From: a virus
Length of the DNA stretch: 36,767 nucleotides
IMG/VR virus record: IMGVR_UViG_3300042691_018389
Span: 1 to 36,767 of that record
Direction: 5' to 3' (one strand)
In this document: piece after piece, positions 18,325-26,751 of the stretch
How the letters are laid out: every line of letters begins with the position of its first letter
Numbering within the stretch: the stretch's first letter is position 1
Translations under genes and position numbers: made by a program
Notes under the pieces: generated by a model
Databases searched by the model: none
Told to the model about the DNA's origin: nothing
The model's input: only the letters and a program-made list of their open reading frames with translations

Positions 18325-18332
18325 TATAAATA
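18325..18332 (+). promoter_or_regulatory. T4-late-type promoter element TATAAATA
   Basis: Exact TATAAATA, the minus-10 element read by the T4 late sigma gp55, about 18 bases before the endonuclease ATG. Only two exact copies were noticed on the plus strand in this window, here and at 20309. The gp45 clamp needed for late transcription is encoded here; gp55 is not in the window. Confidence 0.55.
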
Positions 18333-18349
18333 AGTATACGGAGGTAACA

Positions 18350-18841
18350 ATGTATACAGTTTATAAAATTACCAATAAATTAAATGAAAAATATTACATA
18401 GGGGTACACAAGACAGATAACCCCTATGATAATTATATGGGAAGTGGTAAAGCAATCAAAAACGCTATAGAAAAATATGGTGTTGAAAATTTTACCAAAG
18501 AAATACTTTTGGTTACTCAAACTAAAGAAGAAGCTTATTCGTTAGAAAAAGATCTTACCTCTAATTATTTTGAAGAATCAAATTATAATATGAAACAAGG
18601 CGGTGTAGGTGGATTCACTCCTGAAAATGCACATAAAGGTTTAGTTGCCTTATGTCGCATCGCTGGCAAAGCTTCATACGAACAAAAAAAAGGATATCAT
18701 GCTCAAACAAAAGAACAACTTTCTGAAAATGGTAGAAAAGGTGGTTTAGCACTTAAAGGTAAACCTAAAAGTGACAAACACAAAGAAGCTGTTAAGGCTG
18801 CTTGGGCAAGAAAAAGAATGGGCGTGTCGTATAATGGTTAG
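18350..18841 (+). CDS. GIY-YIG homing endonuclease
   Basis: 163 aa. VYKITNKLNEKYYIGVHKT gives the GIY-YIG core, followed by YMGSGKAIKNAIEKYGVENF and a helix with EEAYSLEKDL that would hold the catalytic Glu, as in the T4 Seg-type enzymes. The C-terminal half (ENGRKGGLALKGKPKSDKHKEAVKAAWARKR) is a NUMOD-like DNA-binding region. GGAGG precedes the ATG. The last 22 bases of the gene lie inside the tRNA at 18820, so its C-terminal residues are specified by tRNA sequence. Confidence 0.88.
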   Translation: MYTVYKITNKLNEKYYIGVHKTDNPYDNYMGSGKAIKNAIEKYGVENFTKEILLVTQTKEEAYSLEKDLTSNYFEESNYNMKQGGVGGFTPENAHKGLVALCRIAGKASYEQKKGYHAQTKEQLSENGRKGGLALKGKPKSDKHKEAVKAAWARKRMGVSYNG

Positions 18842-18895
18842 TACCAGCTCCTCATAAGAGCTCTAGTGTCCGTTCGAATCGGGCCGCGCCTACCA
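18820..18895 (+). tRNA. tRNA-Met(CAT), or Ile2(CAT) if modified; CCA encoded
   Basis: A full cloverleaf folds by hand: acceptor GGGCGTG/CGCGCCT, D stem GTAT/GTAC with GG in the loop, anticodon stem AGCTC/GAGCT with loop CTCATAA (anticodon CAT), 5-base variable loop, T stem GTCCG/CGGGC with loop TTCGAAT, discriminator A and encoded CCA; 76 bases in all. It lacks the three G-C pairs of the initiator anticodon stem, so it is not an initiator. Elongator Met and lysidine-modified Ile2 cannot be told apart here. It overlaps the end of the homing endonuclease gene. Confidence 0.92.
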
Positions 18896-19662: not shown

Positions 19663-19980
19663 TCACTTGCTCATATAGGCATTAGCACCAAAAAATGTAG
19701 CTACAACACCTGCTTGTGCAATATAGAACATCTGTAATAGATTATCTAATGCAGCGAGCCTATCTATTCCGACAAGTGGTGTAAATAAAGCTAAAGTAAA
19801 GATGACCATGCTTCCCATAGCAACCCATGCCATGGAACGAAGCTGGTCTTCTTTTTTGTCTTTATTTTCAGCATCAATCATGGCTTGTGCTTTATTCATT
19901 TCATCATCAGTAACTGTACCATCACCATCAACGTCAAATTGGTTATACTTAGAACCTTTTTCTAAAGTCTTAGTTGCCAT
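19663..19980 (-). CDS. EF-hand membrane protein, 105 aa
   Basis: Residues 16-27 are a perfect 12-residue EF-hand loop (DVDGDGTVTDDE, with D16, D18, D20, G21 and E27), normally a calcium site. A charged helix follows, then two hydrophobic segments (MAWVAMGSMVIFTLALF and IAQAGVVATFFGANAY). The loop would lie on one side of the inner membrane. It is translated after the 20261 gene, with a two-base gap. I recall similar proteins in marine T4-like phages but not a function. A lysis role is a guess. Confidence 0.7.
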   Translation of the reverse strand: MATKTLEKGSKYNQFDVDGDGTVTDDEMNKAQAMIDAENKDKKEDQLRSMAWVAMGSMVIFTLALFTPLVGIDRLAALDNLLQMFYIAQAGVVATFFGANAYMSK

Positions 19981-20308: not shown

Positions 20309-20316
20309 TATAAATA
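20309..20316 (+). promoter_or_regulatory. T4-late-type promoter TATAAATA of the curli-like operon
   Basis: Exact TATAAATA, followed by TTACGGAGG and the csgF ATG at 20331. The flanks resemble the element at 18325 (TATAAATAAGTATACGGAGG). If read by the phage late sigma, the whole 20331-25646 operon would be expressed late. The untranslated leader would be only about 10 bases. Confidence 0.6.
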
Positions 20317-20330
20317 TTACGGAGGTATTT

Positions 20331-20768
20331 ATGGTTAGATATGTTTTGGCTGGTTTTTTGATAATATCACCAGCAGCTGCATCCGAGATGGTATTCAAAT
20401 TTAATAATCCTTCATTCTCGGGTGAAGGATGGTCTTCACATGTTCTTACGATAGAGAACCAAGAGTATACTCGTAAGATGAAAATTATAGAGGATCAGAA
20501 AGCTGCTGCTGCTAAAGCTGCAGCAGATGCAAAGAATACTAATCTAGCCAAGTTTTTAAATAACCTTGAGAGCAGAATATACGCTACTATTTCTCAGAAG
20601 ATTGCAGAGCAATTATTTTCTGACCAGGGGTTGACAACAGGTAATTTTGATGTTGCTGGTTCTAATATTTTTTGGGAATCTACAGCAGATGGTATCCATT
20701 TAATTATAACAGATGCTGGTGGAATGACAACTGACATAACAGTTCCTTTGGGAAGTCTTGCAATATGA
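20331..20768 (+). CDS. csgF: CsgF-like curli assembly protein
   Basis: CsgF caps the CsgG pore and couples secretion to fibre nucleation. 145 aa with a signal peptide (MVRYVLAGFLIISPAAAS). The mature N-terminus EMVFKFNNPSFSG matches E. coli CsgF, where M-x-F-x-F-x-N-P-x-F inserts into the CsgG channel. An Ala/Lys-rich helix follows (about residues 50-70), then a beta-rich C-terminal domain ending DITVPLGSLAI, like the TIQVSGL end of E. coli CsgF. Start chosen by GGAGG five bases upstream. Overlaps csgG by four bases. Confidence 0.88.
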   Translation: MVRYVLAGFLIISPAAASEMVFKFNNPSFSGEGWSSHVLTIENQEYTRKMKIIEDQKAAAAKAAADAKNTNLAKFLNNLESRIYATISQKIAEQLFSDQGLTTGNFDVAGSNIFWESTADGIHLIITDAGGMTTDITVPLGSLAI

Positions 20769-21565
20769 AATATATTATTTTAGCACTTACATTGGTTTTG
20801 GCTGGGTGTAATTCGGTTCCTAAAGATTATAGGGATGAATTAAAAACAGAACAACCAACACCAATTTATAAAAAAAGACAAAATGATTTAGTTAATTTAA
20901 TACCACCCGATGGACCGCAAGTACCTGTTGCTGTTTACAAGTTTGGTGATCTAACTGGACAAAGAAAACCTAATGATCGCTTTGCTGATCTCAGCACTGC
21001 AGTATCACAAGGTTCAGAAGTATTCATGATCAAGGCATTGCAAGATGCTGGTGGTGGTACATGGTTTAAAGTTGTTGAGAGAGTTAACTTAGATAATCTA
21101 GTTAAAGAAAGACAACTTATTAAGAGTCAAAGAGAAGTATACGAAGGTAAAGAAGCAAAACCACTACAACCTCTAATCGTTGCAGGTATTATGATTGAAG
21201 GTGGTGTGGTAGGATATGATAGTAATGTTTCATCTGGAGGTGCTGGTGCACGTTTATTAGGAATAGGAGCATCACAACAATACCGTAAAGATGAAGTGAC
21301 CGTTGTATTGAGATTAGTTTCCATTAATACAGGTGAGATTTTATTATCGACAGGAGTATCTAAGACTATTCTTAGCACAGGTACTAATGGAAATTTGTTA
21401 AAGTTTGTAGACCAGAATACTACTACAGTAGAGTTTGAAGCGGGTAATAATATTAACGAACCAACAACATATGCAGTTCGTATTGCTATTGAAGAAGCTG
21501 TAGTACAAATGGTTCGTGAGGGAATTAGAAAAAATTTATGGAAGTATAAACCAGAAGAGAGGTAA
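20765..21565 (+). CDS. csgG: CsgG-like outer-membrane curli secretion pore (lipoprotein)
   Basis: CsgG forms a nonameric lipid-anchored pore that exports curli subunits. 266 aa compared with 277 in E. coli. The lipobox LAGC puts the lipidated Cys at residue 15. VAVYKFGDLTGQRKP, LSTAVSQGSEVFMIKALQDA, IEGGVVGYDSNVSSGGAGAR, LRLVSINTGEILLSTGVSKTIL and NEPTTYAVRIAIEEAV follow the E. coli sequence along its length. At the pore constriction, the E. coli segment Y-P-A-S-N-F reads D-R-F-A-D-L here by eye, so the channel lining differs. Likely a working pore in the host outer membrane. Confidence 0.95.
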   Translation: MKYIILALTLVLAGCNSVPKDYRDELKTEQPTPIYKKRQNDLVNLIPPDGPQVPVAVYKFGDLTGQRKPNDRFADLSTAVSQGSEVFMIKALQDAGGGTWFKVVERVNLDNLVKERQLIKSQREVYEGKEAKPLQPLIVAGIMIEGGVVGYDSNVSSGGAGARLLGIGASQQYRKDEVTVVLRLVSINTGEILLSTGVSKTILSTGTNGNLLKFVDQNTTTVEFEAGNNINEPTTYAVRIAIEEAVVQMVREGIRKNLWKYKPEER

Positions 21566-21567
21566 CA

Positions 21568-22242
21568 ATGAAACTACTAGCAAGATTGACAGCTGCTTTG
21601 TCATTCTTGGTTATGTTTCAATATGCAAATGCTGCAAGTAATTTAATTATTGTTGATCAAATTGGTAACAGTTCTACTATCAATTTTACACAAACCGGTT
21701 TGGGCAACAGCATTGGTGACGCAACTAATCACGCGATTTTAAATGGTAATTCAAACGCCGTCACAATAGATCAAATAGGTAATAATAACACAGCTGCTGT
21801 CTCTGTAGATGGAGACAATAACACATTGTCATTTTCTTTTACAGGTAACTATAATGATTTAAGTTTACTGTGTGTTACTTGTTCTGCAATTACAATGACA
21901 GATACAGTCTATGGTACTGGTAATATTATTAGTCGTAATTTTGATACACAGGCTAGCACATCTACAATTAATATACAATCAGATAATAATACAGTGACTA
22001 TCAATAACGATACTACAGCAATATCAGGTGCACAATCAGCAGTTGACATTTCTGGTGGTAACGGCAACACAGTACAAATTAGACAAACAGGTGCCGCAGG
22101 AACAAATGGTCACGATGCATCGTTGACTATACTTGGTGCAACTAATACAGTTAACATTGATCAAGGTGGTGGAGTTGATAGCAGCGTTACAGCGACTATT
22201 ACTGGCTCTGGTAACACTATGTCTATTAACAGCAACTACTAA
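21568..22242 (+). CDS. curlin-repeat protein (CsgA/CsgB-like), candidate secreted fibre subunit
   Basis: 224 aa, signal peptide MKLLARLTAALSFLVMFQYANA. The mature part is Asn/Thr/Ser/Gly-rich with curlin-type units: IIVDQIGNSSTINFTQTGLGN, VTIDQIGNNNTAAVSVDGDNN, VQIRQTG and VNIDQGG, matching the S-x5-Q-x-G-x-x-N-x-A pattern only in part. It lacks the strict regular repeats of E. coli CsgA and has a Cys pair (CVTC) in the middle. It follows csgG by two bases, so it is the likely cargo. Amyloid formation is inferred. Confidence 0.85.
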   Translation: MKLLARLTAALSFLVMFQYANAASNLIIVDQIGNSSTINFTQTGLGNSIGDATNHAILNGNSNAVTIDQIGNNNTAAVSVDGDNNTLSFSFTGNYNDLSLLCVTCSAITMTDTVYGTGNIISRNFDTQASTSTINIQSDNNTVTINNDTTAISGAQSAVDISGGNGNTVQIRQTGAAGTNGHDASLTILGATNTVNIDQGGGVDSSVTATITGSGNTMSINSNY

Positions 22243-23287
22243 TGCTGCAATAGGTACAGTTACGGAACAGACTGGTCCTACTGAAATAAAGAGAAATAAA
22301 GAAGTAATACCTTCCGAACTTAGCGCTAAAGTAGAGATGGATGATACTGTCACTACTGCTAATGCAAAGGCAGGTATTACTTTTGAAGATCAAACGCAAG
22401 TTCATATCACCGAGCAAAGCAAGCTCGTGATAGATAATTTCGTTTATGATCCAAACAAAGGTGCTGGTAAACTAGCTGTTAAGATTGCCTTGGGTACAGT
22501 AAAGTATACATCAGGACAGATTGCAAAGAATGACCCACAACAAGTTAAAGTTGAGACGCCGTCTGCTACGATTGGTGTTAGAGGTACCGATTTTACGTCA
22601 ACTGTTGATGAGCTTGGTCGTAGTACTATTATTCTTTTACCTTCTTGTCCCACCGGGTTTCAAGATGTTGAAAAAGATTGTATTACAGGGCAAATTGTAG
22701 TAATGACTGATGCAGGTGAGGTATGGTTAACTAAACCCTTTCAGGCAACATCAGTGGATACTAGAGGTAAATTACCAACTAAACCGGTATTATTGGAACT
22801 TAGTGAAAACCAAATTAACAATCTATTGATTGTGACACCACCAAGAGAATTAAAAAAGAAAGAAGAAGACACTACAATTACTAAAAATTTTCTTGATCAA
22901 GATTTTCTTAATGTTGATTTTCTTGCCTATGATGAACTTAATAAAGATTATCTTATTAATAATAGATTAGATATAAATTTTTTAGATAATGATTTTATGA
23001 TTAACGTATTAGATGCTCAAAGTTCACAATTTTTACAAAGTGAATTAGAAGAGTTTAATTCACTTCTTCCTAATTATAACAAATATAATAAAACTGCAGG
23101 CCTTAAGTTCTTCGTAGATGATATGAGTAATGTTGTTTTATATAGAGAAGATGTAAATCATTATGCTGAATTAAATGTTGCAGATACCCATACTGTGTCT
23201 TATAATTTAACTCAGGATGCAATTTCAATTAAACAGATAGTAAATAGCGCAGGTTCAACCTCAATAACAATTAAGCAATCACTATGA
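22175..23287 (+). CDS. FecR-domain exported protein with pentapeptide-like repeats
   Basis: No ATG exists at the 5-prime end of this frame; I choose the TTG at 22175, with AAGGTGG about five bases upstream, giving a good signal peptide (MIAALQRLLLALVTLCLLTATTNA) and 370 aa. The FecR domain is clear: VEMDDTVTTANAKAGITFEDQ, KIALGTVKYTSGQ and VETPSATIGVRGTDF. Residues 238-277 form eight consecutive five-residue units of [DN]-x-L/M-x-x type. The last 25 residues (ISIKQIVNSAGSTSITIKQS) look curlin-like. It begins inside the upstream curlin gene. In bacteria, FecR proteins often accompany CHASE2 cyclases, which follows two genes later here. Confidence 0.8.
   Translation: MIAALQRLLLALVTLCLLTATTNAAIGTVTEQTGPTEIKRNKEVIPSELSAKVEMDDTVTTANAKAGITFEDQTQVHITEQSKLVIDNFVYDPNKGAGKLAVKIALGTVKYTSGQIAKNDPQQVKVETPSATIGVRGTDFTSTVDELGRSTIILLPSCPTGFQDVEKDCITGQIVVMTDAGEVWLTKPFQATSVDTRGKLPTKPVLLELSENQINNLLIVTPPRELKKKEEDTTITKNFLDQDFLNVDFLAYDELNKDYLINNRLDINFLDNDFMINVLDAQSSQFLQSELEEFNSLLPNYNKYNKTAGLKFFVDDMSNVVLYREDVNHYAELNVADTHTVSYNLTQDAISIKQIVNSAGSTSITIKQSL
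22886..23005 (+). repeat. eight tandem pentapeptide-coding units in the FecR protein
   Basis: Fifteen-base units encode NFLDQ, DFLNV, DFLAY, DELNK, DYLIN, NRLDI, NFLDN and DFMIN in order. All eight begin with D or N and have L or M at position 3. The register is exact for 40 residues. It resembles, but does not fully match, the A(D/N)LxX pentapeptide-repeat family that folds as a right-handed beta helix. Confidence 0.75.
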
Positions 23288-23619
23288 AAAAAATACTATT
23301 ATTTCTTCTACTATCTACACCTTGCTATGCTGGAAGCAATATTATAAATCTCACCGGAAACAGTAATGCTATTACAGCTACACAGATTGGCGATCCTACT
23401 TCTACCTTTTTAGCAACTAACCTAAATAACAGTACTGTTTCTATAGATCAAGAAGGTGGTGGAAGTCATAGTTCTAATATAGAACTTTACGGTAATTTTA
23501 ATAACTATAATATATCAGTAACTCAAAATAGTTCCTCAAACCTTTCTTATTCTATACAACAGTATTGCGGTATATCATCTTGTAATCCATATCCATTGAT
23601 AGTGAACCAGACACAATGA
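23284..23619 (+). CDS. second curlin-like exported protein, 111 aa
   Basis: Signal peptide MKKILLFLLLSTPCYA. The mature part has curlin-type segments (LTGNSNAITATQIGD, STVSIDQEGGGSHSSN, YNISVTQNSSSN) and ends with VNQTQ; a Cys pair lies in CGISSC. It is short, like a nucleator (CsgB-like) or minor subunit. It overlaps the FecR gene and the cyclase gene by four bases each. The role as nucleator is inferred from size and position. Confidence 0.75.
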   Translation: MKKILLFLLLSTPCYAGSNIINLTGNSNAITATQIGDPTSTFLATNLNNSTVSIDQEGGGSHSSNIELYGNFNNYNISVTQNSSSNLSYSIQQYCGISSCNPYPLIVNQTQ

Positions 23620-25646
23620 AAAATTTTCTTATCTCTTTTATCGTATTATGTGCTTTAGCAGCACTTAAAGTGTGGAATCCATATCCAGTTCAAATACTGG
23701 AATTGAAGTCTATTGATTACACATTACGAAGTAAAGAGATAACAACAAACGAAGATATTGTAATTGTAGACGTATCAGATAAGACTCTTGAGAAGTTAGG
23801 ACAATGGCCTATTGATCGTAAAGAGTTTGCTGATATGATTGAACGTCTTCGTCATTATCAAGCAGGTGTTATTGTATTTCCAATTCTCTTTTCTGAACCC
23901 GATAGGAGCGGACACGATAATGAATTTGCAAAATCTGTGGGATCAGGCGGTATCGTACTTGCGCAAGTTCCTACCAACCAAACCCAACGACCTGATGCTG
24001 TTAGGAGAGGATTTTCTGCCATTGGTGCTGACCCTCTCCCCTATACTTTTAGCTGGCCTGGTGCTGTTGCTCCGTTAAAGCAATTTGCTGATAATGCTGC
24101 GGGTGTTGGCACTATTGCATCAACACCAGAGATAGATGGTGTTATTCGTCGTATGCCAATGGTAGTCAGAATTGGCGATCAATTATATCCTTCACTGCCA
24201 TTAGAAATTATTAGGACATTAACAGATGACCCATCCTTCCAAATTAAAACTGGAGAAGCAGGTATCGAGGCTGTACGCATTCCACAGTTTAAGACTATTA
24301 ATACTGATGCTAATGCTCGTATCTGGCTTGACCCTTCTAGCCGTTTTAAGCATGTAGATTTTTTAGATGTTAAACAAGAAGACGTTGAAGGTAAATTAGT
24401 AATATTAGGTGTGTCTGCTTCTGGTGTGTCAACCGTAGTTGCAACACCACACGGTGAACAATTTGTTCAAGATCTACAAGCACAAGCATTACTATCTGTG
24501 TTTGCAGGAACAACACCAGAACGTATTGTAATTGCACCTACTGTAGAGCTATTAACGTTTGCACTATTAGGTCTTCTTATTATATTGGTAGTAACAAGAC
24601 TACCAGTACTCTGGACAGTTCCTGTTTATGTAATTTTATTTCCTGCGGTGGCATACACACAAAGCTATCTGTTTACAACTTATAACCAGCTTTGGGATTC
24701 TTCTTATATACTATTAGCTGGTTCACTAATTTACTTTATGATTGTTGCTCAGAAAATGATATCTGAGTATCTACAGAAGCTACAAATCAAGAAACAATTT
24801 GGAACATATTTGTCTCCTGCCATGGTAGAAAAGCTTCAGAAGAATCCAGAACTACTTCAGCTAGGTGGTGAGACAAGAGAGTTGTCTATTATGTTTACCG
24901 ACGTTCGTGGTTTTACTTCTATCTCTGAACATTACGGCACTGACGTTCAGGGTCTCACTAAAATAATGAATCGTTATATGACTGCAATGACTCAATCTAT
25001 TCTTGAGTCTAATGGTACACTTGATAAGTATATTGGTGATGCACAAATGGCGTTTTGGAATGCACCACTAGATGATTCTAATCATGCTAAGCATGCTGTC
25101 GATGCTGCTGTGAAGATGTTAGATAAATTGAAGGAGTTTAATGATGAGATCGCCAAAGAAGGAGTACCGCCGTTCGGTATGGGATTGGGTATCAATACTG
25201 GTAATGTTGTTGTGGGAAACATGGGTAGTGTACAACGTTTTGATTATACTTGCCTTGGGGATAATGTTAATTTGGCCTCAAGACTTGAAGGACAATCAAA
25301 GAACTATGGAGTACAAATCATCCTCGGACCAGAAACAGCTCGTCAGGTAAAATCAACATATAATGTAGTTGAACTTGATTGTATTGCTGTCAAAGGTAAA
25401 AAAGAAGGTGTAAAGATCTTTACTTTGATAGATGATGCAGATTGGGCAAAGAGCCACGAAAAGAATCACATCAGATTCTTATCATTCTACTATGAAGGTG
25501 ATTGGAACAGAGCGAGAACATATGCTAAGGAATGTAAGAAATTATTTAATGGAAAGCTCGAGCACTACTATGATATGATGCTCGAGCGCATTGAAAAGAA
25601 CCCACCTAAAGGTTTTGATGGGGTTTACAGAGCAACTAGTAAGTAA
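23616..25646 (+). CDS. CHASE2-domain class III adenylate cyclase, membrane-bound
   Basis: 676 aa. TM1 near the N-terminus (FLISFIVLCALAALKVW), a periplasmic CHASE2 sensor at about residues 22-300 (DIVIVDVSDKTLEKLGQWP, then GAVAPLKQFADNAAGVGTI), three TM helices at about 305-380, then the cyclase domain. Metal-binding D429 (MFTDVRGFTS) and D475 (YIGDAQMAFW) are present. K471 and D543 (FDYTCLGDNVNLASRLEG) fit adenine recognition, and the N/R transition-state residues are in NLASRLE. The product should be cAMP in the host cytosol. Last gene of the curli-like operon. Confidence 0.93.
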   Translation: MKNFLISFIVLCALAALKVWNPYPVQILELKSIDYTLRSKEITTNEDIVIVDVSDKTLEKLGQWPIDRKEFADMIERLRHYQAGVIVFPILFSEPDRSGHDNEFAKSVGSGGIVLAQVPTNQTQRPDAVRRGFSAIGADPLPYTFSWPGAVAPLKQFADNAAGVGTIASTPEIDGVIRRMPMVVRIGDQLYPSLPLEIIRTLTDDPSFQIKTGEAGIEAVRIPQFKTINTDANARIWLDPSSRFKHVDFLDVKQEDVEGKLVILGVSASGVSTVVATPHGEQFVQDLQAQALLSVFAGTTPERIVIAPTVELLTFALLGLLIILVVTRLPVLWTVPVYVILFPAVAYTQSYLFTTYNQLWDSSYILLAGSLIYFMIVAQKMISEYLQKLQIKKQFGTYLSPAMVEKLQKNPELLQLGGETRELSIMFTDVRGFTSISEHYGTDVQGLTKIMNRYMTAMTQSILESNGTLDKYIGDAQMAFWNAPLDDSNHAKHAVDAAVKMLDKLKEFNDEIAKEGVPPFGMGLGINTGNVVVGNMGSVQRFDYTCLGDNVNLASRLEGQSKNYGVQIILGPETARQVKSTYNVVELDCIAVKGKKEGVKIFTLIDDADWAKSHEKNHIRFLSFYYEGDWNRARTYAKECKKLFNGKLEHYYDMMLERIEKNPPKGFDGVYRATSK

Positions 25647-26015
25647 TTACTCTGATGTATTGTTACAGTCAATACAGTAATAATAAGGTTGTGGAAATAA
25701 ACCTACTTCTGTAATATCATCAACACTTGAACCCTCTCCATCTCTCCCTTCAAGTTCACCGGTAAAAATAACTTCAGGTAGCGGACCTTCAAAGTAACCA
25801 TCTACCAATGGAAACTCATCTGATGATTCTAGTTTATTTGTAGGTTTACCTTTTTTAAGTTTCTCTACTTGGATAGGCTTCTTTTCTACTTGAATAACTT
25901 CAGTACCAAACATTACATTATTATTTGTAATACCAGGTCTTAAAGGAAGAATATTATTACCAGCAAATGCAGATGTTGTAAATAATAGAGTTCCTAAAAT
26001 AATAAAGTTTTTCAT
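25647..26015 (-). CDS. exported protein, 122 aa
   Basis: Signal peptide MKNFIILGTLLFTTSAFA. The mature part is acidic, with a Lys-rich stretch containing a repeated IQVEK, and ends near a Cys pair (YYYCIDCNN). AGGAG precedes the ATG, and the start shares one base with the upstream stop. It faces the adenylate cyclase gene tail to tail with no gap. The Cys pair echoes those in the curlin-like proteins, but no homology is evident. Function unknown. Confidence 0.65.
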   Translation of the reverse strand: MKNFIILGTLLFTTSAFAGNNILPLRPGITNNNVMFGTEVIQVEKKPIQVEKLKKGKPTNKLESSDEFPLVDGYFEGPLPEVIFTGELEGRDGEGSSVDDITEVGLFPQPYYYCIDCNNTSE

Positions 26016-26323
26016 TAGTCTCTCCTTTTAACAGATGATTTTTCCATATCAGCATCAAACTTCTTAACATCAGCTTTACTATAGTCAGCTTTTTGTTTTA
26101 ATATTACAGTCATTTTTAATTTTTGATTGAGTCTTATAAGATCATTATCTAATCTACGAACTCTGTCAATGAGACCAATAAGTGTTTTGTTTGCATCTGC
26201 AAGAACTGGACTTACTTCTGTTGTCGTCCACATCCAGATAAAGTAAATAAAGTATCCCATACCACCAGCTGCGATGATAGGAAACCCGTACTTATTGACT
26301 AGTTCTCCTATGTCCATATCCAT
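26015..26323 (-). CDS. N-terminal TM plus coiled-coil protein, paralogue of the 26434 gene
   Basis: 102 aa. N-terminal hydrophobic segment (YGFPIIAAGGMGYFIYFIWMW), then a helix with RVRRLDNDLIRLNQKL. The 26434 gene has GFPIAAAGAAGYFVFKM followed by ARVRVINNEIVKTDKLL, so the two share layout and motifs and are probably a tandem duplication. Such small TM plus coiled-coil proteins can be holins or lysis accessories, but I see no proof. Confidence 0.6.
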   Translation of the reverse strand: MDMDIGELVNKYGFPIIAAGGMGYFIYFIWMWTTTEVSPVLADANKTLIGLIDRVRRLDNDLIRLNQKLKMTVILKQKADYSKADVKKFDADMEKSSVKRRD

Positions 26324-26433: not shown

Positions 26434-26751
26434 TCAATTACGAAGTTCGTCTTCTGATTCTCCACCATCTTCCGTTCTTACTAATGTTCTCATATCGTTA
26501 GATCTTGAACTTATTTCTGGATCAGTTGGAACATCTATTATCTGAGACAGAAGTTTATCTGTTTTCACTATCTCATTATTAATAACTCTAACACGTGCAT
26601 CTAGACCAGAAATAATTGCTTCTAATCCTTTAATAGATTTAATAACAGTACCTAAGATAAATTGCATCATCTTAAATACAAAGTATCCTGCTGCACCCGC
26701 TGCTGCAATTGGAAAACCAACGTCAGCTAATAATTTAACAAAAAATTCCAT
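26434..26751 (-). CDS. N-terminal TM plus coiled-coil protein, paralogue of the 26015 gene
   Basis: 105 aa with one N-terminal hydrophobic segment (VGFPIAAAGAAGYFVFKMM), a helix likely to form a coiled coil and an acidic tail rich in E and D. One base separates it from the upstream stop, so it is coupled to the 26753 gene. The GFPIxAAG start resembles YvrJ/holin-like peptides. Function unproven. Confidence 0.6.
   Translation of the reverse strand: MEFFVKLLADVGFPIAAAGAAGYFVFKMMQFILGTVIKSIKGLEAIISGLDARVRVINNEIVKTDKLLSQIIDVPTDPEISSRSNDMRTLVRTEDGGESEDELRN

Follow-up and report, generated by a model that had tools for sequence, protein, structure and literature searches.

The window analysed here, a 36,767-base virus record with T4-like replication genes whose DNA polymerase has cyanophage polymerases as its nearest relatives (about 49% identity), carries six closely packed genes on the + strand (20331-25646), which direct reading and HMM searches identify as csgF, csgG and genes for a curlin-repeat protein, a FecR-domain protein, a short curlin-like protein and a CHASE2 adenylate cyclase. 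Together they almost certainly constitute a phage operon for curli-type (type VIII) secretion; since the same six-gene set occurs in two described phage families, this is one more member of a kind already known. What is new here is the exclusive link of this module to a pair of small membrane proteins and the discovery of chromosomal counterparts in bacteria, the six-gene set having been known already. The gene identities and operon structure given in a first-pass annotation of this DNA were upheld by direct reading and by Pfam, in which CsgF, CsgG, Curlin_rpt (for gene 3), FecR, CHASE2 and Guanylate_cyc all matched. Widespread phages of free-living aquatic bacteria spend about 5 kb on these functions, curli secretion and what appears to be cAMP signalling.

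The tight packing of the six genes claimed at first was found as described for most junctions, with ATGA overlaps at csgF/csgG, fecR/gene 5 and gene 5/cyclase and a 2-nt gap at csgG/gene 3. The exception is fecR, the most likely start of which is a TTG at 22175, within the preceding gene, so that the last 68 nt or so of gene 3 are shared with the signal-peptide region of fecR. The operon had been taken to begin at 20309, which is the coordinate of a promoter motif, and csgF itself begins at 20331. Comparison with the four closest loci gave dN/dS values of 0.00-0.19 across the operon and the small membrane pair (eight genes in all), and purifying selection acts on all of the operon genes.

The motif in question is a T4-late-type promoter element, TATAAATA (20309..20316, + strand), which ends 14 nt 5' of the csgF start codon in the window and thereby implies a very short leader. 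Only 2 copies are present in the window against 5.25 expected, so the element is rarer than expected, and its position is invariant in the nearest relatives. Of 58 dereplicated phages, 18 have it no more than 100 nt upstream of csgF, compared with 0.8% expected (binomial P about 1e-23, a value that is overstated because the phages are related). The original reading as a T4-late-type promoter is borne out by this fixed position and enrichment and, judged by sequence, the element that precedes csgF is a conserved signal of a late promoter and no chance occurrence. The second copy in the window, at 18325-18332, lies just 5' of a GIY-YIG-like ORF (18350-18841), which is adjoined by a tRNA-Met (CAT) gene (18820-18895, + strand).

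The components by which curli or type VIII secretion is recognised, namely a CsgG pore, CsgF with a pore-binding peptide and secreted curlin-repeat subunits, are all encoded. The csgF gene (20331..20768, + strand) specifies a protein of 145 aa with a signal peptide, which matches Pfam PF10614 (1.7e-17, spanning profile positions 7-132 of 132), PHROG 35372 (2e-45) and, by profile, the E. coli CsgF of solved structure 6l7a (1.8e-4). Alignment reveals an extra helix-like stretch before the C-terminal part and conservation of the N-terminal FxNPxFSG segment, which we take, following the CsgG-CsgF structures, to be the part that enters the CsgG barrel. The csgG gene (20765..21565, + strand) encodes an outer-membrane lipoprotein pore of 266 aa with a lipobox (LAGC) whose cysteine is invariant in the alignment, and matches both Pfam PF03783 (3.7e-50) and the E. 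coli CsgG of solved structure 3x2r (1.5e-46). The stated likeness of both proteins to those of E. coli, including the pore peptide of CsgF, is thus confirmed. The constriction residues of E. coli CsgG (Y51, N55 and F56) are replaced in the phage CsgG, and the properties of the pore may therefore differ. Compared with the E. coli csgBAC/csgDEFG system, whose CsgG, CsgF and curlin repeats are homologous to those of the window, the phage operon has a FecR protein and a CHASE2 cyclase added, together with the extra stretch in CsgF, and it lacks CsgC, as well as CsgE and CsgD, neither of which was matched among the six ORFs or the scanned flanking ORFs. The latter two are accessory, outside the Gammaproteobacteria not every system has them, and they are also missing from Alphaproteobacterial curli operons (PMC9599517), and so membership of the type VIII secretion systems stands.

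Two curlin-like proteins had been proposed, and the evidence for them differs. Gene 3 (21568..22242, + strand) encodes a predicted fibre subunit of 224 aa with a signal peptide and two stretches of curlin repeats above the Pfam cut-off (PF07012, 1e-6), its match to the NCBIfam CsgA model (2e-4) being under the cut-off of that model. The AF2 model of this protein (pLDDT 83) is all-beta and beta-helix-like, and a structure search with it matched general beta-helix proteins and no specific relative. Gene 5 (23284..23619, + strand) is identified by its position and homologues as encoding a short curlin-like secreted protein of 111 aa. Its own Curlin_rpt score is sub-threshold (0.48; 0.0065 in the close homologue of L006), and the longer homologues that occupy its place in other phages do score above the cut-off (5e-8, 6e-8 and 2e-4). 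The dN/dS of gene 5 is 0.08-0.14. In other phages the second curlin combines curlin repeats with PA14 or F5/8C domains (the F5/8C match is just under the Pfam cut-off), which favours a role in adhesion.

The FecR-domain protein (22175..23287, + strand; about 370 aa; Pfam PF04773, 5.7e-12; PHROG 37870, 9e-102) has a signal-peptide-like N-terminus with the FecR domain directly after it. Its structural model contains a fairly confident domain with a fold like the periplasmic part of FecR/PupR regulators, a disordered linker and a C-terminal small beta unit. A reading of this protein as an iron regulator was considered and is weak, because the protein is secreted, has the periplasmic-domain fold only and carries no anti-sigma part; no sigma gene is found in the operon either. 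The last gene (23616..25646, + strand) encodes a class III adenylate cyclase of 676 aa with CHASE2 (1.2e-38) and Guanylate_cyc (1.2e-21) domains in Pfam, in which all six catalytic residues are present: the two metal-binding aspartates (D429, D475), the Lys/Thr adenine pair (K471, T545) and the Asn/Arg pair (N552, R556). In Sinorhizobium, CHASE2 cyclases receive a signal from an outer-membrane barrel, NsrA (PMC13001267), a pathway that resembles the arrangement proposed for the phage in that such a barrel feeds these cyclases and differs from it in having no curli parts.

A search of 50,697 phage records for CsgG relatives returned HTVC008M (two records), four Melnitz isolates and a 1.5-kb 'Salmonella phage' record (L004), set aside as a low-coverage scrap, and a search with the full-length cyclase found the same phages. 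Pelagibacter phage HTVC008M and the Melnitz phages share the six genes and their order with the window, and all six are annotated in the deposited Melnitz record. Among the viral contigs found through CsgG, csgF-csgG-curlin-fecR occurs in nearly every locus that is long enough, and in most cases a second curlin and the cyclase come next; this order recurs in dozens of viral contigs, and in one small group (L017 and L018) the cyclase is inverted. An LpxH-like metallophosphoesterase gene lies between fecR and the next module gene in L005 (12520-13251), L007 (5305-6102), L015 (12470-13252) and L049 (8542-9300), with a glycosyltransferase gene also inserted there in L049.

The first-pass annotation is wrong in suggesting that a full set including cargo and signalling genes was without precedent. 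A curli operon was reported in pelagimyophages (PMC7029224), a version of it was described in Melnitz (PMC9004378), and in 2022 the arrangement CsgF-CsgG-CsgA/B-FecR-(CsgA/B)-(AC) was described in pelagi-podophages and re-found in pelagimyophages, with transcripts of the module in ocean metatranscriptomes (PMC9599517); on the last of these papers, together with the annotated Melnitz record, novelty of the six-gene set is rejected. The window shares with the pelagiphage T8SS/curli module (PMC9599517; HTVC008M; PMC7029224) the same six families in the same order; the CsgG, FecR and cyclase proteins are about 40-48% identical, and the gene 5 product of the window has 111 aa compared with 441 aa in HTVC008M. 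The operon of the methylophage Melnitz (PMC9004378) likewise has the six genes in this order; the paper discusses CsgG and CsgF and states that amyloid genes are lacking, whereas the record annotates curlin repeats.

The module has two further constant members, which were absent from the six-gene operon as first annotated. These are the small membrane proteins a (26015..26323, - strand) and b (26434..26751, - strand), both assigned to phrog_18771, which by flank comparison are paralogues of about 100 residues each (both 93 aa in HTVC008M). In each, a single hydrophobic segment, which is distinct in b (median KD 2.18) and borderline in a (1.56), precedes a conserved coiled-coil-like stretch. 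The pair adjoins the module in the order b-a in 49/49 phage loci in which the cyclase is present with at least 3 kb on each side, some of these loci being near-copies of each other. It is placed either immediately upstream of csgF in the same orientation, as in HTVC008M (Melnitz, too, has it upstream), or convergent after the cyclase, as in the window. A search with the pair alone as query never found it away from the module where the sequence extends 8 kb or more to either side (44 loci): csgF or csgG is present in 42 of these, and the other two have cyclase and fecR on a flank that ends before csgG. Among deposited phages only HTVC008M and Melnitz have the pair, and a search of 367 alphaproteobacterial genomes, run with a positive control, found no protein b. 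The pair is as constant as csgG itself and belongs to the curli module in phages, an exclusive association which provides a concrete new handle on function. No holin or kinase model was matched in HMM searches, and this route gave no identification of the pair as a holin. These proteins are likely to be the 'two hypothetical proteins of the same size' mentioned in PMC7029224 and may also be the 'histidine kinase, sometimes two' of PMC9599517. DNA_pol_A is absent from 28 long records, which indicates that podophages are absent from that set.

Ordinary alphaproteobacterial curli loci, as recovered by a CsgG scan and HMM annotation, have the order csgF-csgG-curlins, without FecR or cyclase of the phage-operon type. 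The order csgF-csgG-curlin(s)-fecR-CHASE2 cyclase was found in chromosomal sequence of two Caulobacteraceae MAGs (L063, 9444-15539; L064, 8307-14367) and on a 705-kb contig of Hyphomonas sp. TMED17 (L087, 9381-15476), in contrast to the published view that bacterial curli operons are without FecR and cyclase. The flanks of all three are ordinary chromosomal genes, for example those for TonB receptors, acyl-CoA dehydrogenase and glycosyltransferases (named by inspection), and in L063 a gene for an SpdA/CpdA-like cyclic-nucleotide phosphodiesterase lies 5' of csgF. The CsgG and cyclase domains were confirmed by Pfam, and the curlins are matched by a phage-built profile, with no or only a weak match in Pfam. 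These loci share with the window the gene order, the extra stretch of CsgF (common to phage and chromosomal CsgF and absent in classical Erythrobacter CsgF) and a FecR protein that aligns end to end at 29-32%, but the small membrane pair was not found at any of them. In a CsgG tree made by a quick method with SH-aLRT support only, the chromosomal copies group with phage contigs L029/L049 (96), apart from classical bacterial CsgG, and the GC content of the module is only slightly under that of most flanks. All three are metagenome bins, for which binning error is possible, though the gene linkage is within contigs. They are also rare, as full-length FecR of the phage-operon type occurs in 1/398 sampled genomes of the order and 1/385 of the class, each time in the genome of L087. 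Further bacterial-bin contigs with a phage-type module, most of them with the pair (L059-L062, L065, L066, L069, L110, L116 and L127), are probably misbinned phage DNA; L069, L127, L110 and L116 were rejected as bacterial carriers as all four have the phage-only pair, with T4-like replication genes flanking the module in L069, and L059-L062 carry the pair too. The chromosomal loci indicate that the association of FecR and cyclase with curli genes is not confined to phages, and they provide bacterial groups for functional tests.

The reading that we prefer, and consider reasonably probable, is that a late operon exports adhesive fibre subunits onto the infected cell, while the FecR and CHASE2 proteins report envelope or secretion state as cAMP. 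The operon would be transcribed late in infection, and CsgG oligomers with CsgF at their mouth would make a pore across the outer membrane of the host, through which the two secreted curlin-like proteins would exit to assemble as adhesive, amyloid-like fibres on the cell, the second possibly as an adhesive tip (the copies in related phages have predicted sugar-binding-type domains). The secreted periplasmic FecR protein would report the state of pore, fibre or envelope to the periplasmic CHASE2 domain, to which the cyclase would respond by making cAMP, and the membrane pair may work with the module in gating, timing or lysis coupling, as an inner-membrane element peculiar to phages. The net benefit would most likely be that host cells or progeny are kept close, or that the surface is altered against competing phages; surface change, cell cohesion, lysis and exclusion have all been proposed before (PMC7029224, PMC9004378, PMC9599517). 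Taken separately, an active secretion pore is highly plausible, fibres on the cell surface and cAMP signalling are each somewhat less assured though still favoured, and adhesion as the benefit to the phage is a tentative proposal. The domains of the second curlin, the FecR fold, the intact cyclase residues and the Sinorhizobium precedent make this the most economical account, and the phosphodiesterase-like gene beside one chromosomal counterpart, the ocean transcripts, the beta-helical model of gene 3, the family matches, the gene order shared with other phages, the conserved late promoter and the low dN/dS values also count for it. Counting against this reading are the missing CsgE, CsgC and CsgD, the short, sub-threshold gene 5, the replaced constriction residues of CsgG, and the fact that clumping was not seen by cytometry or TEM in Melnitz infections (PMC9004378).

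Three other explanations have been weighed against adhesive fibre export. Extending the pinholin idea of PMC9004378, CsgG might serve as an outer-membrane hole with the pair as its holin-like inner-membrane partners, the operon then controlling or aiding lysis and not making fibres. Two paralogous membrane proteins of ~100 aa that always adjoin the module, a late promoter, an Rz-spanin-like protein near the module in L029 (with a close homologue by eye in L049) and a lysozyme-like ORF downstream in L069 (by inspection) all speak for such a role, but we judge it improbable, as the pair matches no holin model and as it would leave unexplained the curlin, FecR and cyclase genes, which are conserved and under selection, and the second curlin with PA14 or F5/8C domains. 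An uptake pore was proposed in PMC7029224 and PMC9599517 and accords with the lack of an encoded CsgE plug; through CsgG the infected cell would take in larger nutrients or cofactors, and FecR and cAMP would serve to sense nutrients. Such a pore would have no need for CsgF or curlin genes, constant parts of the module on which selection acts, and the FecR protein, secreted and limited to the periplasmic-domain fold, has no anti-sigma part; of the three explanations this is the least probable. Superinfection exclusion, also proposed in PMC9599517, would have fibres or a surface change bar other phages from their receptors, and the envelope-type enzymes inserted in related modules (LpxH-like in L005, L007, L015 and L049; glycosyltransferase in L049) are in keeping with it; late expression, however, would leave it little time, and we regard it as unlikely.

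Adhesive fibre export could also be part of a larger, eight-gene machine, in which the phage-specific inner-membrane pair would couple the CsgG/CsgF pore and FecR-CHASE2 cAMP signalling to the phage programme, with fibre release timed with, or triggering, lysis. This would be signalling-controlled secretion unlike that of described bacterial curli and, taken jointly, it is a speculative proposal to which we give some, though limited, credence. A further gene for a small membrane protein, with an EF-hand-like segment, is located at 19663-19980 of the window (- strand) and is found near the module in 17/49 phage loci.
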